DNA from: Deltaproteobacteria bacterium
GTDB taxonomy: Bacteria > Desulfobacterota > Desulfobacteria > Desulfobacterales > ETH-SRB1
Length of the DNA: 7,288 bases
Direction: 5' to 3'
Assembly: GCA_030611115.1 (NCBI GenBank)
Contig: JAUWQK010000075.1
Location: 1 to 7,288 of the forward strand
The notes under the pieces were generated by a model that had not been told where the DNA came from, did no database searches, and worked only from the letters and a program-made list of their open reading frames with translations. A program made the position numbers and the translations under genes. Numbering within the stretch: position 1 is the stretch's first letter; each line of letters starts with the position of its first letter. Shown here piece after piece: positions 1 to 7,190 of the stretch.

Positions 1-36
1 TATATTTATATATAATAGAGTTGATTTTCATAAATA

Positions 37-196
37 GTAACAGTTCACGGTTGTCGGTTTACAGTTAACAGTTTTATGCTTTTCGTTCTCGTTCCCATGC
101 TCCAGCGTGGGAATGCATACCACAGGTTACCACGCCGAAGCATGGGAACCAGGCACAGTTTTATGTTTTGAGCAACCGTAAACCGTAAACTGTTAC
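37..196. repeat. Outer inverted repeat of the GTAACAG/GTTCACGG family
   Basis: The left arm GTAACAGTTCACGGTT (37-52) and the right arm AACCGTAAACTGTTAC (181-196) form a 16-bp inverted repeat with one mismatch. The inner flanks are also related, with further GTTTAC and GTAAAC units at 57-63 and 178-184. The left 16-mer recurs exactly at 4644-4659. Between the arms sits a second, unrelated palindromic element (79-154). The segment 1-238 is otherwise non-coding and lies downstream of the minus-strand gene block. I infer a dispersed, non-autonomous intergenic repeat; it has no coding capacity. Confidence 0.7.
79..154. mobile_element. REP/MITE-like palindromic insertion with flanking direct repeats
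   Basis: GTTCCCATGCT (91-101) pairs perfectly with AGCATGGGAAC (139-149). Extended inwards, 91-110 and the complement of 130-149 agree at 18 of 20 positions, around a loop at 111-129. Each arm also holds its own near-palindrome, for example TCCCATGCTCCAGCGTGGGA. The element is flanked by an exact 11-bp direct repeat, ACAGTTTTATG, at 68-78 and 155-165, which looks like a target duplication. The motif resembles the GTTCCCA...TGGGAAC palindromes that I recall as highly repeated in several environmental proteobacteria. That resemblance is from memory and was not searched. Confidence 0.6.
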
Positions 197-238
197 CATA
201 AATAATACCGCAAGGAAGGAAAAAAATTATTCAAGCCT

Positions 239-2190: not shown

Positions 2191-2208
2191 GTAACCGTTC
2201 ACGGTTAC
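2191..2208 (-). promoter_or_regulatory. Perfect hairpin of the AACCGTGAAC family in the lpxB leader
   Basis: GTAACCG (2191-2197) and CGGTTAC (2202-2208) form a perfect 7-bp stem with a TTCA loop. It lies between a strong Shine-Dalgarno (AAGGAG, 2215-2220 on the minus strand) and the lpxB start at 2169. AGCTAT (2211-2216, minus strand) and ATAGCT (2171-2176, minus strand) can form a closing 6-bp stem around it. The strong Shine-Dalgarno directly serves only an ATG-TAA pair at 2205-2210. I infer either a repeat insertion in the leader or an RNA structure that brings the Shine-Dalgarno near the true start. Confidence 0.5.
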
Positions 2209-2242
2209 ATATAGCTCCTTGAATCTAAAAAGATAACATATG

Positions 2243-2438
2243 ACTCAGGACGGGTGCCATGGACAAACTTGTTTGTCCGTGCCCTTTTTCTGTTCAATGA
2301 TGGGAACTGTTGGTAAGAAAAAAATTTCAAAAACACACCTAACCGCAATCATTGAAGTACCGAGCAGTTCTTCTCTTTCGTTACTTTGTATTGATGCCCT
2401 TTGCACGGACAAACAAGTTTGTCCATGGCACCCTGAGT
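2243..2438. mobile_element. 196-bp MITE-like element with palindromic terminal inverted repeats
   Basis: The ends of this stretch are inverted repeats of about 36 bp. The left end begins ACTCAGG, followed by GGTGCCATGGACAAAC and onward to 2282. The right end, 2403-2438, is its complement, with only a 3-nt indel near the outer tip. Each terminal repeat contains its own hairpin, GGACAAAC-TT-GTTTGTCC. An inner inverted repeat, TTCAATGAT (2293-2301) with ATCATTGAA (2348-2356), adds a further stem. No transposase or credible gene lies inside; the 67-codon plus-strand frame across it is just the element read through. It accounts for over half of the gap between the oxidoreductase and lpxB genes. 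I could not define a convincing target duplication. Confidence 0.72.
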
Positions 2439-2531
2439 ACTGACAAAAGACTACGGTAAAACCTTTTCATGGTGCCTAATGGAGTGTTGGAGTCGGTGCC
2501 TTATTACTCAGTGAACGGATACGGCTTACCG
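2439..2531. other. Remaining gap between the oxidoreductase gene and the 196-bp element
   Basis: There is no coding frame or terminator here. The only recognisable piece is GTGAACGGATAC at about 2510-2521. It is a degenerate copy, in opposite orientation, of the GTTCACGG repeat seen in other gaps. Nothing else is supportable. Confidence 0.4.
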
Positions 2532-3485
2532 CTAAAGAAGGCTTCCGTTAGACTCGCTGATTTGGTTCATAATGCTTAAAGCTGTCTTTAAAGCATCGCG
2601 TCCCATTAGTCCCGTAACTTCAGGGACATTACGATTTTGTACCGATTTTACAAAGGATTTAAGCTCATCTTCCAAGGCGTCACTTTTTGTAAAGCAGAGC
2701 TGTTTTATTTCCATGCCCGGGATAAGGCTGTTTGAACTTTTTTCGTTCTGTCTGATCACGGTTATTTCATGATTTGCAAAATCGACAGAAATATATGCAT
2801 CTTTTTGGAACAGCCTGATTTTCCTTTCATTTTTTGTTGAAATTCTGCTTGCCGTAACATTTGCGACACATCCATTTTCAAATTCTAAACGAGCATTTGC
2901 TATATCAACATGTTTTGAGATTACAGGTATGCCTGCTGCATGAATGCTTTTTATGCTATACCTGACAAAGTTCAGAATTATATCTATATCATGAATCATG
3001 AGGTCCAGAATTACGCTGACATCGGTGCATCTTTCTTTATATATGCTCAAGCGATGTGATTCTATAAACCTTGGATTTTTAACAAAATCCTGCAAGGCAA
3101 CAACAGCAGGATTGAACCTTTCAAGATGCCCGACCTGTATAATAAGGCCCTTTGATTCTGCAATTTTAATCAGTTCGTCAGCCTCTTCAAGGGTTGTTGT
3201 TATCGGCTTTTCGATAAGAACATCAATGCCATTTTCAAGAAAATTTTTGCTGACGGCAAAGTGAGCAGGCGTAGGAACGACTATGCTCACAGCATCGACT
3301 TTTCCGAATAGATCTTTGTAGTTTGTATATGCAGATATACCAAAATTTGCCGCTGTGTTTTCGGCTTTTTCTTTTTCTATATCAACAACGCCGACAAGTT
3401 CAACTTCATCCATTCCTGCATACTTTTCAGCATGAAATTTACCAAGATAACCTGTACCTATTACACCAACACGAAGTTTTTTCAT
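2532..3485 (-). CDS. Gfo/Idh/MocA-family NAD-dependent sugar oxidoreductase (GnnA-like)
   Basis: A 317-aa cytoplasmic dehydrogenase of the Gfo/Idh/MocA family. The N-terminal Rossmann fold shows VGVIGTGYLG (6-15, GxGxxG), an acidic residue after the second strand (VVD, 33-35), and IVVPTPAH (68-75). The family catalytic motif EKP is at 92-94. GHLERFNP (119-126) and LDLMIHDIDI (160-169, with His165) are typical of members that oxidise nucleotide-sugar hydroxyls. Its place between lpxI and lpxB suggests a role in making or modifying the lipid A sugar. The closest characterised model I know is GnnA, which oxidises the 3-OH of UDP-GlcNAc so that GnnB can aminate it. No GnnB-type aminotransferase is in the window, so the substrate is inferred. 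The start is MKKLRVGVIG, with a weak GGA 7 nt upstream. The end of the foldback element lies only 18 nt upstream of the start codon. Confidence 0.88.
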   Translation of the reverse strand: MKKLRVGVIGTGYLGKFHAEKYAGMDEVELVGVVDIEKEKAENTAANFGISAYTNYKDLFGKVDAVSIVVPTPAHFAVSKNFLENGIDVLIEKPITTTLEEADELIKIAESKGLIIQVGHLERFNPAVVALQDFVKNPRFIESHRLSIYKERCTDVSVILDLMIHDIDIILNFVRYSIKSIHAAGIPVISKHVDIANARLEFENGCVANVTASRISTKNERKIRLFQKDAYISVDFANHEITVIRQNEKSSNSLIPGMEIKQLCFTKSDALEDELKSFVKSVQNRNVPEVTGLMGRDALKTALSIMNQISESNGSLL

Positions 3486-3503
3486 GATTATTCCGTTTTA
3501 TTC

Positions 3504-3792
3504 GTAACACTTTAGCTTTATGAAACAAACCAGATAGGCGTGAGCTTCAGGTGTGATACATTCAAAACAGGACACGAAGTGAAGCATTAGCGCTAAACTG
3601 TTTGAGCGCATTAGATATCGTCAAGAAAGAACCTTGCAGGATCTTGTCATTGTTTATTAATGGCTTGCTGACCTGTTACTATTGTTTTCATTCGTGGCAA
3701 GTTCTTTCTTTACGATATCTTATGCGTGAGTTTTTCATGGTTTTAATGTATTATACCTGAAGCGAATATATTTCAAAGCGCTAAAGTGTTAC
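3504..3792. mobile_element. 289-bp foldback/MITE-like element between lpxI and the oxidoreductase gene
   Basis: The ends are a perfect 13-bp inverted repeat, GTAACACTTTAGC (3504-3516) and GCTAAAGTGTTAC (3780-3792). Two further inverted blocks follow inwards. CTTCAGG-plus-ATACATT sequences at 3545-3568 match the complement of 3740-3762. A block around AGATATCGTCAAGAAAGAAC (3607-3637) matches the complement of 3697-3726. The element fills the gene gap, lying 9 nt from the lpxI stop and 18 nt from the next start. The flanking octamers TTTTATTC and TTCAATTC agree at 6 of 8 positions, compatible with an old 8-bp target duplication. GTAA ends and 8-bp duplications recall IS66-type elements, but this is a weak link. 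There is no coding capacity. Confidence 0.72.
3750..3776 (-). promoter_or_regulatory. Candidate sigma70 promoter within the foldback element
   Basis: On the minus strand TTGAAA (3771-3776) and a perfect TATAAT (3750-3755) are separated by 15 nt, a short but tolerated spacer. It would read toward the oxidoreductase and lpxB genes, which the long insert would otherwise separate from the upstream promoter. The matching position in the other arm of the element reads TGTGAT and has lost the box. This was recognised by motif only. Confidence 0.35.
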
Positions 3793-3801
3793 TTCAATTC
3801 T

Positions 3802-4620
3802 TTAATCTTTATTGTTTATAGCAACTATAGCAATCCCAAACTTGTCTGCCAGTGCTATCATTTCTTCTCTGTCAAAAACCACGGCCTTTCCTGCTTCAAT
3901 AGCCAGAGCCTTTGCGCCTGCTTCATGCATGGTACTGATTGTCTGCGCGCCGATAGCGGGCATATCAAACCTGACATCCTGAGTTGGTTTGCAAACCTTA
4001 ACAACTACAGCGGTTCCATTGCCAAGTTCCCCGCCTCTTTTTATTGTGGCATCAGTTCCATCAATAGCCTCTACGGCAAGGACTGATCCGCCTCCCACAA
4101 CAACGCATTGACCTATATCAAGGCGTCCAATCTCCTTTGCATATTTCCAGCCCAGGTCAATATCGGCTTTTTCCGACTTGGTTGGCTTTCGTTTTGTCCA
4201 GCATCCTTCCTGAGCCAGAATGTCGGGGAGTAAGAATGTTGAAGCGCTTATTTTGATGCCCTCTTTTTCAAGAGTTCTGGCAAAGGCACTCAAAATTCCA
4301 TCATCATGTGTATGGATCATACCGGCAAAAAGCGAGATTGCTTTCATATCCGGTTTTAAATCTTTAAAGTCCGAAAAGATACTTGTCTTACGAATGGCGC
4401 CCATCATGACGGCTTCGCTTATATTGTGCTTTTTAAAAAAACTGATGAGACGCTTCAACTGCCCCAGATGCATCCATTCTATTTCATCAACGTGGTCTTC
4501 CAGACTCTTGTCAGCCTCATTCAAAAAAGCTGCGGCATAAACAGAAAACCCTTTTGATTTTGCTTTTTTTGAAAAAATTATGGGGAACTGGCCGCTCCCC
4601 GCAATTAGACCTATCCGCAT
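3802..4620 (-). CDS. lpxI: UDP-2,3-diacylglucosamine pyrophosphatase LpxI
   Basis: LpxI (formerly DUF1009) hydrolyses UDP-2,3-diacylglucosamine to lipid X and UMP, replacing LpxH in many alpha- and deltaproteobacteria. The 272-aa length fits. The N-terminal domain begins MRIGLIAGSGQFPI. HTHDDGIL (103-110) matches the conserved H-D-D segment. The C-terminal catalytic domain contains GGGSVLAVEAIDGTDATIKRGG (176-197), VVKVCKPTQDVRFDMPAIG (206-224) and GAKALAIEAGKAVVFDREE (235-253). Asp219, in FDMPAIG, probably corresponds to the essential Asp225 of the Caulobacter enzyme. GAGG lies 10 nt before the ATG. The position between lpxA and lpxB matches the pathway. A 178-nt gap full of repeats separates it from lpxA. 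Confidence 0.96.
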   Translation of the reverse strand: MRIGLIAGSGQFPIIFSKKAKSKGFSVYAAAFLNEADKSLEDHVDEIEWMHLGQLKRLISFFKKHNISEAVMMGAIRKTSIFSDFKDLKPDMKAISLFAGMIHTHDDGILSAFARTLEKEGIKISASTFLLPDILAQEGCWTKRKPTKSEKADIDLGWKYAKEIGRLDIGQCVVVGGGSVLAVEAIDGTDATIKRGGELGNGTAVVVKVCKPTQDVRFDMPAIGAQTISTMHEAGAKALAIEAGKAVVFDREEMIALADKFGIAIVAINNKD

Positions 4621-4642
4621 AAATTACAGACCTCGTAAATTT

Positions 4643-4673
4643 GGTAACAGTTCACGGTTTACAGTTTACGGTT
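4643..4673. repeat. GTAACAGTTCACGGTT intergenic repeat upstream of lpxI
   Basis: GTAACAGTTCACGGTT at 4644-4659 is identical to 37-52, followed by degenerate TTTAC/CGGTT units up to 4673. On the coding strand the core AACCGTGAAC ends 29 nt before the lpxI start codon. It lies between the tandem repeat at 4735-4797 and lpxI. It is a family member, with no other function visible. Confidence 0.7.
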
Positions 4674-4734
4674 AATCGCTTTACGATTTTTTTCTCAGTC
4701 ATCGATTTCATTGAGTGAACATTATGAACTTTTT

Positions 4735-4797
4735 ATCCCTGCTCCCTGATCCCTAAACCCTGATCCCTGGCCCCTGATCCCTGGCCCCTGATCCCTG
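4735..4797. repeat. 14-bp tandem repeat, 4.5 copies, G-quadruplex-prone on the mRNA strand
   Basis: Units start at 4735, 4749, 4763, 4777 and 4791 (partial). The consensus is ATCCCTGGCCCCTG; the third and fourth units are identical. The array ends one base before the complement of the lpxA stop codon (4799-4801). On the minus (mRNA) strand it gives nine G-runs of 3-4 G spaced by 3-4 nt, satisfying the usual G-quadruplex pattern. It sits in the lpxA-lpxI intercistronic region. Confidence 0.85.
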
Positions 4798-4798
4798 T

Positions 4799-5569
4799 TT
4801 ACCTTGTTATTCCTCGCTGAGATGATTTAATAAAATCTATAAAGTAAACTACTTCAGGAATCTGTTCCACTTCAGCCTTTACTCTCTCTATAGCCTCGTT
4901 TATTGTAAGGCCAATTCGAAAAATAATTCTGTAAGCTTTTTTTAATAATTTGAGTTTGCTTTGAGAAAAGCCACTTCGCTTCAGGCCCACACTGTTTAAG
5001 CCGTGAAGCATGGCTCTGTCACCTGCTGCAATAACATAGGGCGGTATGTCTTTTACAACAGCGGATTTTCCTCCCACAAAAGCATAATCACCTATTCTTA
5101 CGAACTGGTGAATAGCTACAAGTCCTCCAATGGTTGCATAATCGCCAATTGTAATATGTCCTCCAAGTGTTGCATTGTTTGACATGACGACTTTTCGGCC
5201 GATTTTGCAGTCATGAGCGATGTGAGTATAAGCCATCAGGAAATTTTCCTCGCCGACTTCAGTTATGCCGCCGCCAAATCCTGTTCCTCTGTGAATTGTA
5301 ACAAACTCGCGTATAATTGTTTTACGCCCAATGGTAACATAGGTTTTTTCGCCTTCAAACTTTAATGACTGTGGAGCAGCGCCAATCGCCGCATACTGAA
5401 ATATATGACATTCCGGCCCAATGGTAACATAAGGTTCAATCACTACATGGGGACCTATTATTGTTCCAGCTCCGATAAAAACATCTTCTCCAATAATCGA
5501 ATACGGACCGACTTCTACAGTGGAGTCCAGTTCAGCTTTGGGATCGATAATTGCGGTTGGATGTATCAT
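4799..5569 (-). CDS. lpxA: UDP-N-acetylglucosamine O-acyltransferase LpxA
   Basis: LpxA catalyses the first step of lipid A synthesis, moving an R-3-hydroxyacyl chain from ACP to UDP-GlcNAc (or UDP-GlcNAc3N in some species). The 256-aa protein is a left-handed beta-helix of hexapeptide repeats (residues 1-185), followed by a helical tail with GLKRSGFS (195-202). THIAHDC (115-121) carries the catalytic base His119, equivalent to E. coli His125; His116, His138 and His154 match other conserved histidines. Gly167, in VGGKS, matches the E. coli hydrocarbon-ruler residue Gly173. The start overlaps the fabZ stop as ATGA, and GGAG lies 7 nt upstream (5577-5580), so coupling to fabZ is expected. A G-rich tandem repeat follows directly after the stop. 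Confidence 0.98.
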
Positions 5570-6012
5570 ACTTTTTCTCCAATAGTGGCCATAAATTCAG
5601 CTTCAGCAACGACTTTTTCGTCTACAAATGCGGTACCTGACATTTTAATTGCCTTTGCTCGCTGTTTTAGTATTTTGATTTCAAGCAAAAGCTGGTCGCC
5701 CGGTAAAACAGGCTTTCTGAATTTGACTTTGTCAATTCCCATAAAATATATAAGAGCACCATGCTTTTCTTCCGGCAGGGATTTAAAAACCAGTACGCCG
5801 CCCGCCTGAGCCATAGCCTCTATTATAAGTACGCCCGGCATAATAGGAGCGCCCGGAAAATGCCCCTGGAAAAACGGTTCATTTATGCTGACATTTTTGA
5901 GGGCGACAACCTTTTTATCAGCTACAAGCTCAAGTATTCGATCAACCAGAAGAAATGGATAGCGGTGAGGAAGCAAGCTCATTATTTTCTGAATATCATA
6001 ATTGTTCTTCAT
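5566..6012 (-). CDS. fabZ: 3-hydroxyacyl-ACP dehydratase FabZ
   Basis: A hot-dog-fold dehydratase of fatty acid elongation. It draws on the same 3-hydroxyacyl-ACP pool as LpxA and LpxD, so its place between them ties membrane lipid and lipid A supply together. The protein is 148 aa, beginning [20 protein letters not shown]. The catalytic His51 is in [13 protein letters not shown] (48-60) and Glu65 is in [12 protein letters not shown] (61-72). The start at 6012 is chosen because AGGAG (6020-6024) lies exactly 7 nt upstream and because the family begins just before the I-x-x-x-L-P-H-R-Y-P-F motif. The longer frame from 6066 would add 18 residues with no homology and runs through a repeat. The stop overlaps the lpxA start by 4 nt. 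Confidence 0.97.
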
Positions 6013-6024
6013 TATCTTTCTCCT

Positions 6025-6068
6025 GTTGCATAGTCGTTCACGGTTAAAATGCTTCAGTCGTTGCATAG
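6025..6068. repeat. Short GTTCACGGTT repeat bounded by 9-bp direct repeats
   Basis: GTTGCATAG occurs at 6025-6033 and again at 6060-6068, bracketing a 26-nt stretch that contains GTTCACGGTT (6036-6045). A second direct repeat, AGTCGTT, overlaps both ends (6032-6038 and 6056-6062). This looks like an insertion with target duplication in the lpxD-fabZ gap. On the coding strand AACCGTGAAC ends 23 nt before the fabZ start. Confidence 0.5.
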
Positions 6069-6098
6069 CTCATTGAAAAAACTGTGAGCTGTAAACCC

Positions 6099-7142
6099 TT
6101 AACTAAGTTTCTCCTCAATCTTATTTAATTTCTTTTCAATTTCAGATAGTTTTTTGCTGAGTTCGGGAAGCATAGGTATAATTCTCTGCACCCGCAGCCA
6201 TAATCTGTGGGGCATTGCAGGTGCTCCGGATACGATCTGGTTATCCGGGACAGACTTTGCAACACCGGCCGTAGGACCGACAGTGACATTGTCACCAACG
6301 GTTAGGTGTCCCGATATTGCCGCTTGTCCAGCAATTGTTACATGTTTGCCTATAATTACACTTCCTGCGATTGCGACCTGTGCTACGAGTAAAGTGTTTT
6401 CACCTACAATAACATTATGGGCAATCTGAACGAGATTATCTGTCTTAACACCCCGGCGAATCCATGTCTTTCCGAATGTTGCCCTGTCTATTGTATTGCT
6501 TGCTCCAATTTCAACATCATCATCTATCTGAACTATACCTGTTTGAGGAATTTTATAATATTTATCTCCGTCAGGAGCGAAACCATAACCATCGCTTCCT
6601 ATTACTGATCCGGCATGAATTATAACTCTGTTCCCGATCCTGCATCTTTCAAGTACGGTCACATTCGGGTATATTAATACATAATCTCCAATAACTACAT
6701 CATCTCCAATAACTACGTTAGGATGCAGGATAACATTTTTTCCAAGCACAACATTATTGCCGATCGCAACAAAAGGCGCGATGGAAACATTTTCTCCGTA
6801 TACAAAATTATTACCGATATAGGCATTTGAACATATTCCATCAATACTATTAGAATAGTCCGGTCTGGAAGGCGGATGAAAAAGAGCCATTGTTTTTGCA
6901 AAAGAAACACGAGGATTATCTACTATTAAAATATTTTTTGAAGACTCTTCAAAGCCTGATGGAACAATAACAGCGCCGGCATTCGTATCATCTATTCTTT
7001 TTAATAATTTTTTATTGTCGGCAAATGTTATATGGTCAGCAGACGCATCATGAAAGGGGGCCACGCCGGTAATAATTTTTTCAGAATTGCCCTTAAAACC
7101 GCCTCCAACAACTTCGGCTATCTTTGCAAGAGATATTTTCAT
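6099..7142 (-). CDS. lpxD: UDP-3-O-(3-hydroxyacyl)glucosamine N-acyltransferase LpxD
   Basis: LpxD adds the second hydroxyacyl chain to the 2-amino group of UDP-3-O-acylglucosamine in the cytoplasm. The 347-aa length is typical. The N-terminal uridine-binding domain runs over about residues 1-98 (GVAPFHDASADHITFADNKK, 26-45). A hexapeptide-repeat beta-helix covers about 104-310, with HAGSVIGSDGYGFAPDGDKY (176-195), KIPQTG (197-202) and IGASNTIDRATFG (212-224). QIAHNV (239-244) contains the catalytic base His242, equivalent to E. coli His239. The tail (about 322-347) is a Lys/Glu-rich helix, probably coiled coil. Only a weak GAG lies about 10 nt before the ATG. It is the first lpx gene of the visible block; any upstream partner such as a Skp/OmpH or BamA gene would lie beyond the window's right edge. 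Confidence 0.98.
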   Translation of the reverse strand: MKISLAKIAEVVGGGFKGNSEKIITGVAPFHDASADHITFADNKKLLKRIDDTNAGAVIVPSGFEESSKNILIVDNPRVSFAKTMALFHPPSRPDYSNSIDGICSNAYIGNNFVYGENVSIAPFVAIGNNVVLGKNVILHPNVVIGDDVVIGDYVLIYPNVTVLERCRIGNRVIIHAGSVIGSDGYGFAPDGDKYYKIPQTGIVQIDDDVEIGASNTIDRATFGKTWIRRGVKTDNLVQIAHNVIVGENTLLVAQVAIAGSVIIGKHVTIAGQAAISGHLTVGDNVTVGPTAGVAKSVPDNQIVSGAPAMPHRLWLRVQRIIPMLPELSKKLSEIEKKLNKIEEKLS

Positions 7143-7164
7143 AATCAGATACTCATTATGTAAG

Positions 7165-7177
7165 CGTTCACGGAACG
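7165..7177 (-). promoter_or_regulatory. Small palindrome with the CCGTGAAC motif in the lpxD leader
   Basis: CGTTC-ACG-GAACG forms a 5-bp stem. On the coding strand CCGTGAAC (7166-7173) ends 23 nt before the lpxD ATG, the same distance as at fabZ. It is a degenerate member of the repeat family; whether it is regulatory is unknown. Confidence 0.4.
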
Positions 7178-7190
7178 TTGAAAATCACCT

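Follow-up and report, generated by a model that had tools for sequence, protein, structure and literature searches.

The stretch analysed here, hereafter the window, comprises 7,288 nt of a Deltaproteobacteria bacterium (contig JAUWQK010000075.1, assembly GCA_030611115.1) and carries lipid A and lipopolysaccharide (LPS) genes, among which lpxB, lpxI, fabZ and lpxD are each preceded at a similar distance by the motif AACCGTGAAC or its shorter form CCGTGAAC. We find that AACCGTGAAC belongs, with little room for doubt, to the terminus of a small transposable element that is non-autonomous and generates an 8-bp target duplication, and is not an operator of the pathway; an attractive regulatory explanation of a conserved pathway, which the data do not support, thereby gives way to a mobile element that can be tested. 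We propose a model where the element inserts with its 8-bp duplication upon being moved in trans by an IS66-family transposase, where the longest intact copies read (444 bp, and 505 bp in a sister subfamily) carry a four-helix-bundle gene of family PF05635, and where shorter copies would be internally deleted derivatives, akin to miniature inverted-repeat transposable elements (MITEs), or single decayed ends. Insertions are mostly intergenic and very often placed just upstream of the Shine-Dalgarno region, which would account for the near-constant distance to start codons, and the lpx/lpt cluster of the window has gathered several of them.

A dispersed element with inverted ends and 8-bp target duplications

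The motif copies on which the original prediction was built are all present: the minus strand carries AACCGTGAAC three times, at 2197-2206, 4650-4659 and 6036-6045, and CCGTGAAC once, at 7166-7173. They end, as had been noted, 27, 29, 23 and 23 nt before lpxB, lpxI, fabZ and lpxD, respectively (starts at 2169, 4620, 6012 and 7142), genes whose identities agree with Pfam. Their abundance is indeed far above chance, with 20 matches at up to two mismatches against 4.93 expected and none of 200 shuffles reaching 20, while simple arithmetic with equal base frequencies predicts about 0.014 exact copies in the window. The count of four leaders is real but incomplete: an overlooked exact copy at 43-52 faces an lptF/lptG-like start 11 nt away, which brings the motif-bearing leaders to five and their gaps to 11-29 nt. 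Near copies at 174-190 (plus strand) and at 4664-4673 place the motif within a 7-nt tandem array in which both orientations occur. The element copies of the window are as follows:

29..36: left target-site duplication, 8 bp, CATAAATA, exact match to 197-204
37..196: complete 160-bp element with ends GTAACAGTTCACGG... and ...CCGTAAACTGTTAC, flanked by the exact 8-bp duplication; the motif is exact at 43-52 (minus strand), with variants at 174-190 (plus strand)
197..204: right target-site duplication, 8 bp, CATAAATA, exact match to 29-36
2191..2208, minus strand: lpxB leader, GTAACCGTTCACGGTTAC, reading as two fused element ends, an 18-bp palindrome with the motif at 2197-2206
4644..4673, minus strand: lpxI leader, element end and 7-nt word array with the motif at 4650-4659, matching positions 1-30 of the 444-bp element at 90% identity
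6030..6104, plus strand: fabZ leader, remnant of a decayed element that runs antisense to fabZ; its end ATAGTCGTTCACGG is degenerate, the motif is at 6036-6045 on the minus strand, outer limits set by eye
7160..7185, minus strand: lpxD leader, one sister-subfamily end GTAAGCGTTCACGGAACGTTGAAAA, with CCGTGAAC at 7166-7173

For the complete copy at 37-196 an empty site is available, as the related locus L063 features a single uninterrupted target near its position 16249. The lptF/lptG-like gene has its start codon inside the duplication at 29-36, and the insertion thus lies directly on the start; because the duplication spans that codon, insertion left it intact and usable.

The same motif is dispersed throughout related genomes, with 252, 151, 210, 376, 256, 47 and 94 exact copies in G001-G007, respectively, against 0-4 per genome for the reversed pattern. 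Copies frequently occur as facing pairs, and the terminal inverted repeat reads 5'-GTAACNGTTYACGGTT followed by 7-nt words such as GTTTACA and GTTCACA, AACCGTGAAC being a part of it. Terminal inverted repeats beginning with GTAA are confirmed by GTAACNGTTYACGG, found 45 times forward and 45 times in reverse in G001 with no control matches, and the ends of the sister subfamily begin with GTAG or GTAAGCG. We collected end pairs with the pattern GTA[AG]NN[GA]TT[CT]AC and its complements from an 800-kb sample of G001 (the genome of the closest relative), the seven lpx loci of relatives, the window, and loci L081-L144 and L185-L214. When a single mismatch is tolerated, 25 of the 42 pairs are flanked by 8-bp direct repeats, compared to 1.05 expected by re-pairing, and 16 of these are exact (two of the 16, at L005 and L105, being one site read from both strands); a 7-bp repeat was found once, and repeats of 3-6 and 9-12 bp never. 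A search of the 800-kb sample that made no use of end sequences yielded ten exact 8-bp flanking repeats against five at 7 bp and one at 9 bp, these neighbouring lengths serving as control and the total of inverted pairs being inflated, probably by an N stretch. Seven of the ten have GTAAC- or GTGAC-type ends; three are also among the 42 pairs, and the others have different interiors. Of the 49 motif copies in the same sample, 43 are located between genes predicted to encode proteins, five in predicted coding sequence and one at an edge.

A 444-bp copy in G001, flanked by a duplication matching at 7 of 8 positions, contains an open 119-aa frame belonging to PF05635 (23S rRNA intervening sequence protein, IVP; 116 bits), and window stretches align to it at 37-75, 174-196, 2191-2206 and 4644-4673 (ends) and at 6046-6097 (gene tail). 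The first two are 90% identical to its right and 87% identical to its left end, 2191-2206 is identical to its positions 1-16, and 6046-6097, beside the fabZ motif copy, is 90% identical to positions 374-425 (E 9e-16), the fabZ leader retaining the last 13 codons of the PF05635 gene with 12 of 13 residues matching. The palindrome of the lpxB leader is also present in a G001 gap (C3 36788-36987). The lpxD-leader end, for which no second element end is seen within the window, is the end of several G001 elements with 8-bp duplications and matches an 86-bp lpxD-leader element in L005 (duplication ATAATGGG). In the sister subfamily, whose outer ends are similar, the 505-bp copy of L205 carries a PF05635 gene as well (84 bits, duplication TAAAAATA). 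The 800-kb sample has five PF05635 loci, three of which are enclosed by end pairs that show 8-bp duplications, and most element copies are shorter and lack the gene.

The moving machinery and PF05635 genes between inverted word arrays

According to one report, IS66 ends start with GTAAGCG and are accompanied by 8-bp repeats (PMC11946415), and two IS66 elements tabulated in another have duplications that we read as 8 bp (PMC3281130). As GTAA-starting ends and 8-bp duplications are both IS66 features, movement in trans by an IS66-type transposase is likely, judging from the sequences at hand. Elements of the same order that encode the IS66 transposase (PF03050) feature ends GTAACCATTCAGC, GTAACTATTCAGC, GTAACGATTCACC or GTAAATATTCGG, with exact 8-bp duplications at L251, L260, L262 and L263. 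The window element resembles IS66 insertion sequences and their MITEs in its GTAA ends, its 8-bp duplications and its small multicopy forms without transposase, and the GTAACNATTCA ends of IS66 copies of the same order are similar to but not identical with its own. Unlike IS66, it has inner 7-nt word arrays and a PF05635 gene in its longest copies; at 444 and 505 bp these are too short for an IS66 transposase, hold the PF05635 frame in its stead, and are not IS66 proper.

Several results speak against this account, and those concerning start distances are given with that evidence below. The end GTAACNGTTCACGG occurs at none of 34 PF03050 loci (4 plus 30 fetched from a survey with matches in 36 of 76 genomes), an autonomous element with identical ends did not turn up, and PF03050 has no match in G001. 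Among the 42 end pairs 17 have fewer than 7 of 8 matching flank bases (three of these have 6), and no target duplication is seen at the lpxB, lpxI and fabZ copies of the window. Furthermore, a second family with words GTTAGC and ends CRACCTGTGCGG, not GTAA, also has terminal direct repeats, of 8 bp at L192 and of 8-9 bp at 4 of 17 further copies, so that a length of 8 bp is not in itself diagnostic of IS66. This second family has 84 matching pieces in G002, and its short copies in G002 and other relatives join the first 105 and the last 86 nt of the element. Several contigs of G002, a metagenome-assembled genome (MAG), begin or end inside such copies; as assembly seems to break at the GTTAGC-word repeats, their copy number is probably underestimated.

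The 8-9-bp repeats of a family without GTAA ends favour the most serious alternative, which we consider unlikely but by no means negligible: that the mover is machinery associated with the PF05635 protein, which might act as the nucleic-acid-binding partner of a reverse transcriptase in the manner of Avd, with the word arrays as its recognition sites. PF05635 is described as homologous to Avd of diversity-generating retroelements in PMC10053308, and one of the plasmid proteins examined here matches bAvd, albeit below cut-off. Moreover, inverted repeats composed mostly of 7-8-nt words, with many different words in use, tend to flank PF05635 genes. In flanks of 180 nt, inverted matches scoring 24 bits or more are present at 35 of 48 loci (19 of 20 in G001-G007 and 16 of the 28 taken from 60 genomes in the class) compared to 0 of 259 slices of the same loci, and at none of 244 genes in G001 that encode no more than 300 aa. 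The 24-bit cut was set after a first look, and at 22 bits the counts are 36/48 and 3/259. The 48 loci exclude 10 partial ones of the first 30 (L201, L202, L206-L209 and L211-L214) and include all 28 later ones, L241 with its 5-nt right flank being counted as a miss and the right flank of L210 being short. On plasmids (11 loci from Cyanobacteria and 1 from Gemmatimonadota, the 12 loci fetched of 24 records), 11 of 12 loci reach 24 bits compared to 3 of 60 control slices; the highest control slice, at 26.3 bits, equals the weakest of the 11, some control slices may overlap arrays, and the twelfth locus has arrays in direct orientation only. Repeats at lag 7 are found in 41 of 118 PF05635 flanks and at lag 8 in 14 of 118, plasmid loci included, compared to 21/488 and 3/488 in controls. 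Against such dedicated machinery, GTAAC ends with a Y-T-Y-A core behind them are common to elements with unrelated interiors and to real IS66 elements, and 8-bp repeats taken over all word families do not exceed the control (5/36 compared to 4/72 for mismatched controls). Repeats of 7 bp do so (13/36 compared to 3/72), which may reflect the 7-nt words, and at most PF05635 loci no direct 8-bp repeats were seen.

A very improbable alternative is that these are repetitive extragenic palindromic (REP) elements or bacterial interspersed mosaic elements (BIMEs) moved by a REP-associated Y1 transposase. The copies are short, palindromic, mostly intergenic and up to hundreds in number, and some ends begin with GTAG, a REP hallmark, but REP elements are not known to make target duplications, and those found here measure 8 bp.

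Beyond the IS66-moved element of the window, we tentatively advance a wider reading, to which we give slightly less than an even chance. PF05635 genes outside rRNA may mark a widespread and largely undescribed class of mobile elements with inverted arrays of 7-8-nt words as ends and a word of its own for each element lineage. Its deletion derivatives would be a main source of intergenic heptamer repeats in Desulfobacterota, Cyanobacteria and others, and its members would settle at gene starts and inside operons, including those of CRISPR-Cas, such that the passenger gene seems functionally linked to its neighbours. If true, this would provide a function-neutral account of heptamer repeats near starts and of 23S rRNA IVP genes inside operons, as well as a concrete biological setting for the large four-helix-bundle protein family, for which we know of no role. 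PF05635 genes do occur inside CRISPR-Cas operons on the cyanobacterial plasmid loci L309, L313 and L314, twice between cas6 and cas4 and once between cas10 and a cmr3-family gene, and are flanked there by inverted repeats, although the weakest of these, at L314, only equals the highest control slice. In a survey of rare CRISPR systems, '23S rRNA IVP' is named in a figure legend (PMC10910872), and among open-licence papers, as far as their accessible text goes, we found none that links PF05635 genes to word arrays or describes these elements.

Two known systems come close. The intervening sequences of 23S rRNA that encode S23p/PF05635, exemplified by that of Coxiella and called a selfish element in the abstract of PMC4990558, are alike in their size of about 430-500 bp and their single PF05635 gene, whereas the present elements lie between protein genes, have word-array ends and give rise to many short derivatives (rRNA genes were outside our search). 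TAACTGA heptamers upstream of starts in marine Beggiatoaceae, for which MacGregor 2015 (PMC4679880) asks if a repeat-binding protein could be the mobile part, are likewise 7-nt repeats between genes, mostly facing and near starts; their word is different, and their description there is one of direct repeats with hardly an exception. G001 contains no run of three consecutive TAACTGA words. Across 192 genomes, six had triple arrays (23 loci at 10 distinct sites), and a PF05635 profile built from 18 proteins found the gene at 0 of the 10 sites in the stretch examined, six of which lie within 100 nt of a contig end. At L189, (TCAGTTA)2 stands on both sides of the PF05635 gene.

Leaders, start codons and downstream genes

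The near-constant distance that drew attention to the motif is real in the window but not specific to lpx genes, as it recurs in the 800-kb sample. Among 21 G001 gaps where the motif faces a start, 10 place it at 21-34 nt from that start compared to 1.27 expected under uniform placement, with 5 of the 21 inside the 23-29 nt range originally noted; G001 sequences feature the near end of the element directly upstream of the Shine-Dalgarno region. Clustering is seen in codirectional and divergent gaps alike, and compact operons alone are thus insufficient as its cause. Here belong the remaining adverse points: the limits of 21-34 nt were set following an initial inspection of the data, G001 starts derive from a simple custom gene caller, and gaps with CCGTGAAC only, mostly of the sister subfamily, fall within that range in just 2 of 29 cases compared to 10 of 21 for the full motif (Fisher p = 0.0017). 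As target choice alone should treat both subfamilies alike, it is possible that the motif-bearing subfamily is kept at leaders or that its word arrays have some role. Of the predicted 'mobile repeat that targets leaders', mobility is borne out by inverted ends, 8-bp duplications, empty sites, differences among relatives and the 21-34 nt clustering, while targeting and retention are both possible.

The other half of that prediction, an operator or regulatory RNA element shared by the lipid A/LPS pathway that is bound by a protein or acts in the mRNA leader, would fit the shared orientation and similar distance at four lpx genes, the fifth copy before the lptF/lptG-like start, and even the clustering in G001. 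We nevertheless consider a lipid A operator ruled out for practical purposes by the presence and absence of the motif in relatives and by the unrelated genes downstream. The motif is not conserved at lpx genes: among the complete or visible leaders of seven close relatives, it occurs in 0 of 4 before lpxB, 0 of 7 before lpxI and 2 of 6 before fabZ (L063 and L005), or 2 of 17 together. CCGTGAAC occurs in 3 of 6 fabZ leaders and in 1 of 5 lpxD leaders (L005), and neither word lies within 120 nt before the lptF-like start in the two relatives checked. The fifth copy leaves the standing of an operator unchanged, because the window is itself an LPS gene cluster and both of these relatives lack the motif there. 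As for downstream genes in the 800-kb sample, 20 of 21 were sent to Pfam (L169:6942-7400 was left out), and the 17 with a family, among them IMPDH, DAHP synthase, DapB, RF-1 and ribosomal protein S2, include none of lipid A, three having no family. Duplications and empty sites, in addition, show insertion.

What relatives feature in these leaders is variable in length and content. The lpxI leader spans 178 nt in the window; in L063 it has 13 nt, and in L001 and L005 it has 28 nt. For the oxidoreductase the leader is 316 nt long in the window compared to 5-6 nt in L002, L003, L005 and L006, and long leaders of relatives often carry differing inserts. The lpxB leader of L063 carries a sister-subfamily element (CAATCTTG) instead, for which L003 has an empty site, and the oxidoreductase leader of L001 has the motif in opposite orientation. 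Before fabZ, L004 has CCGTGAAC, L001 a variant, and L002 and L003 a leader of 0-7 nt by the limits applied here; the array of L005 is two 7-nt words longer than those of the window and L063, and L004 has extra words too. Such period-7 arrays and extra words could be produced by simple microsatellite slippage of 7-nt words without any mobile element, but slippage accounts only for length changes within an array and is scarcely credible, since the copies have defined ends, an inverted layout and 8-bp duplications, one has an empty site, and a protein gene lies between arrays.

An additional element family, with ends like GGCTACCAACKTAAGGCGG, occupies the lpxB leader of L005 (11777-11985) and the oxidoreductase leader of L004 (4426-4640); ends of this type are also found at G001 C4:73017-73141 and C10:65540-65664, both with exact 8-bp flanking repeats.

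Window genes, closest relatives and other insertions

Seven genes on the minus strand are identified by Pfam, namely lpxD, fabZ, lpxA, lpxI, a Gfo/Idh oxidoreductase, lpxB and a DUF374 gene. LpxI is 87-97% identical to its best 14 relatives, those loci of known origin that come closest belong to MAGs carrying the labels Desulfobacterales, Desulfobacteraceae or Deltaproteobacteria, and L063 is the closest long locus, with aligned blocks 92-97% identical to the window. Its counterpart of the frame at 1..31 belongs to PF03739 (LptF_LptG, 290 bits). At 237-359 the DUF374 gene of the window directly joins the apparent tail of an ABC transporter gene, where L063 has a 589-aa ABC transporter at the matching place (14258-16027; Pfam ABC_membrane and ABC_tran). 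The aligned blocks of window and L063 overlap by 11 bp at 349-359, and on that basis either most of the transporter gene was deleted from the window between short repeats or the assembly is chimeric. Features of the window besides the element copies listed above are:

1..31, minus strand: first 10 codons of the lptF/lptG-like open reading frame, MKINSIIYKY, identical to L063 from 16252; start codon at 29-31, inside the duplicated target
68..165, no strand given: putative nested second insertion between two copies of ACAGTTTTATG (68-78 and 155-165), with an inverted repeat at 88-113/127-152; read by eye
3504..3792, no strand given: foldback in the oxidoreductase leader with ends GTAACACTTTAGC, another GTAAC-ended element; inverted repeat found
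4735..4797, no strand given: second 7-nt array of the lpxI leader, words ATCCCTG and GCCCCTG (Tandem Repeats Finder, periods 7 and 14)

The flanks of the oxidoreductase-leader foldback, TTTTATTC and TTCAATTC, match at 6 of 8 positions, and an element with the same type of end and an exact 8-bp duplication is present in G001 (C10:55848-56171). Inside this foldback lies a second one (3607-3726), with 35-nt arms that are 83% complementary. A foldback insertion of another family is found in the lpxB leader at 2252-2433, where the perfect 31-nt inverted repeat GGGTGCCATGGACAAACTTGTTTGTCCGTGC has 120 nt between its arms. Finally, words similar to those of the 4735..4797 array (AGGGGTCAGGGATC) flank the PF05635 gene of L216.

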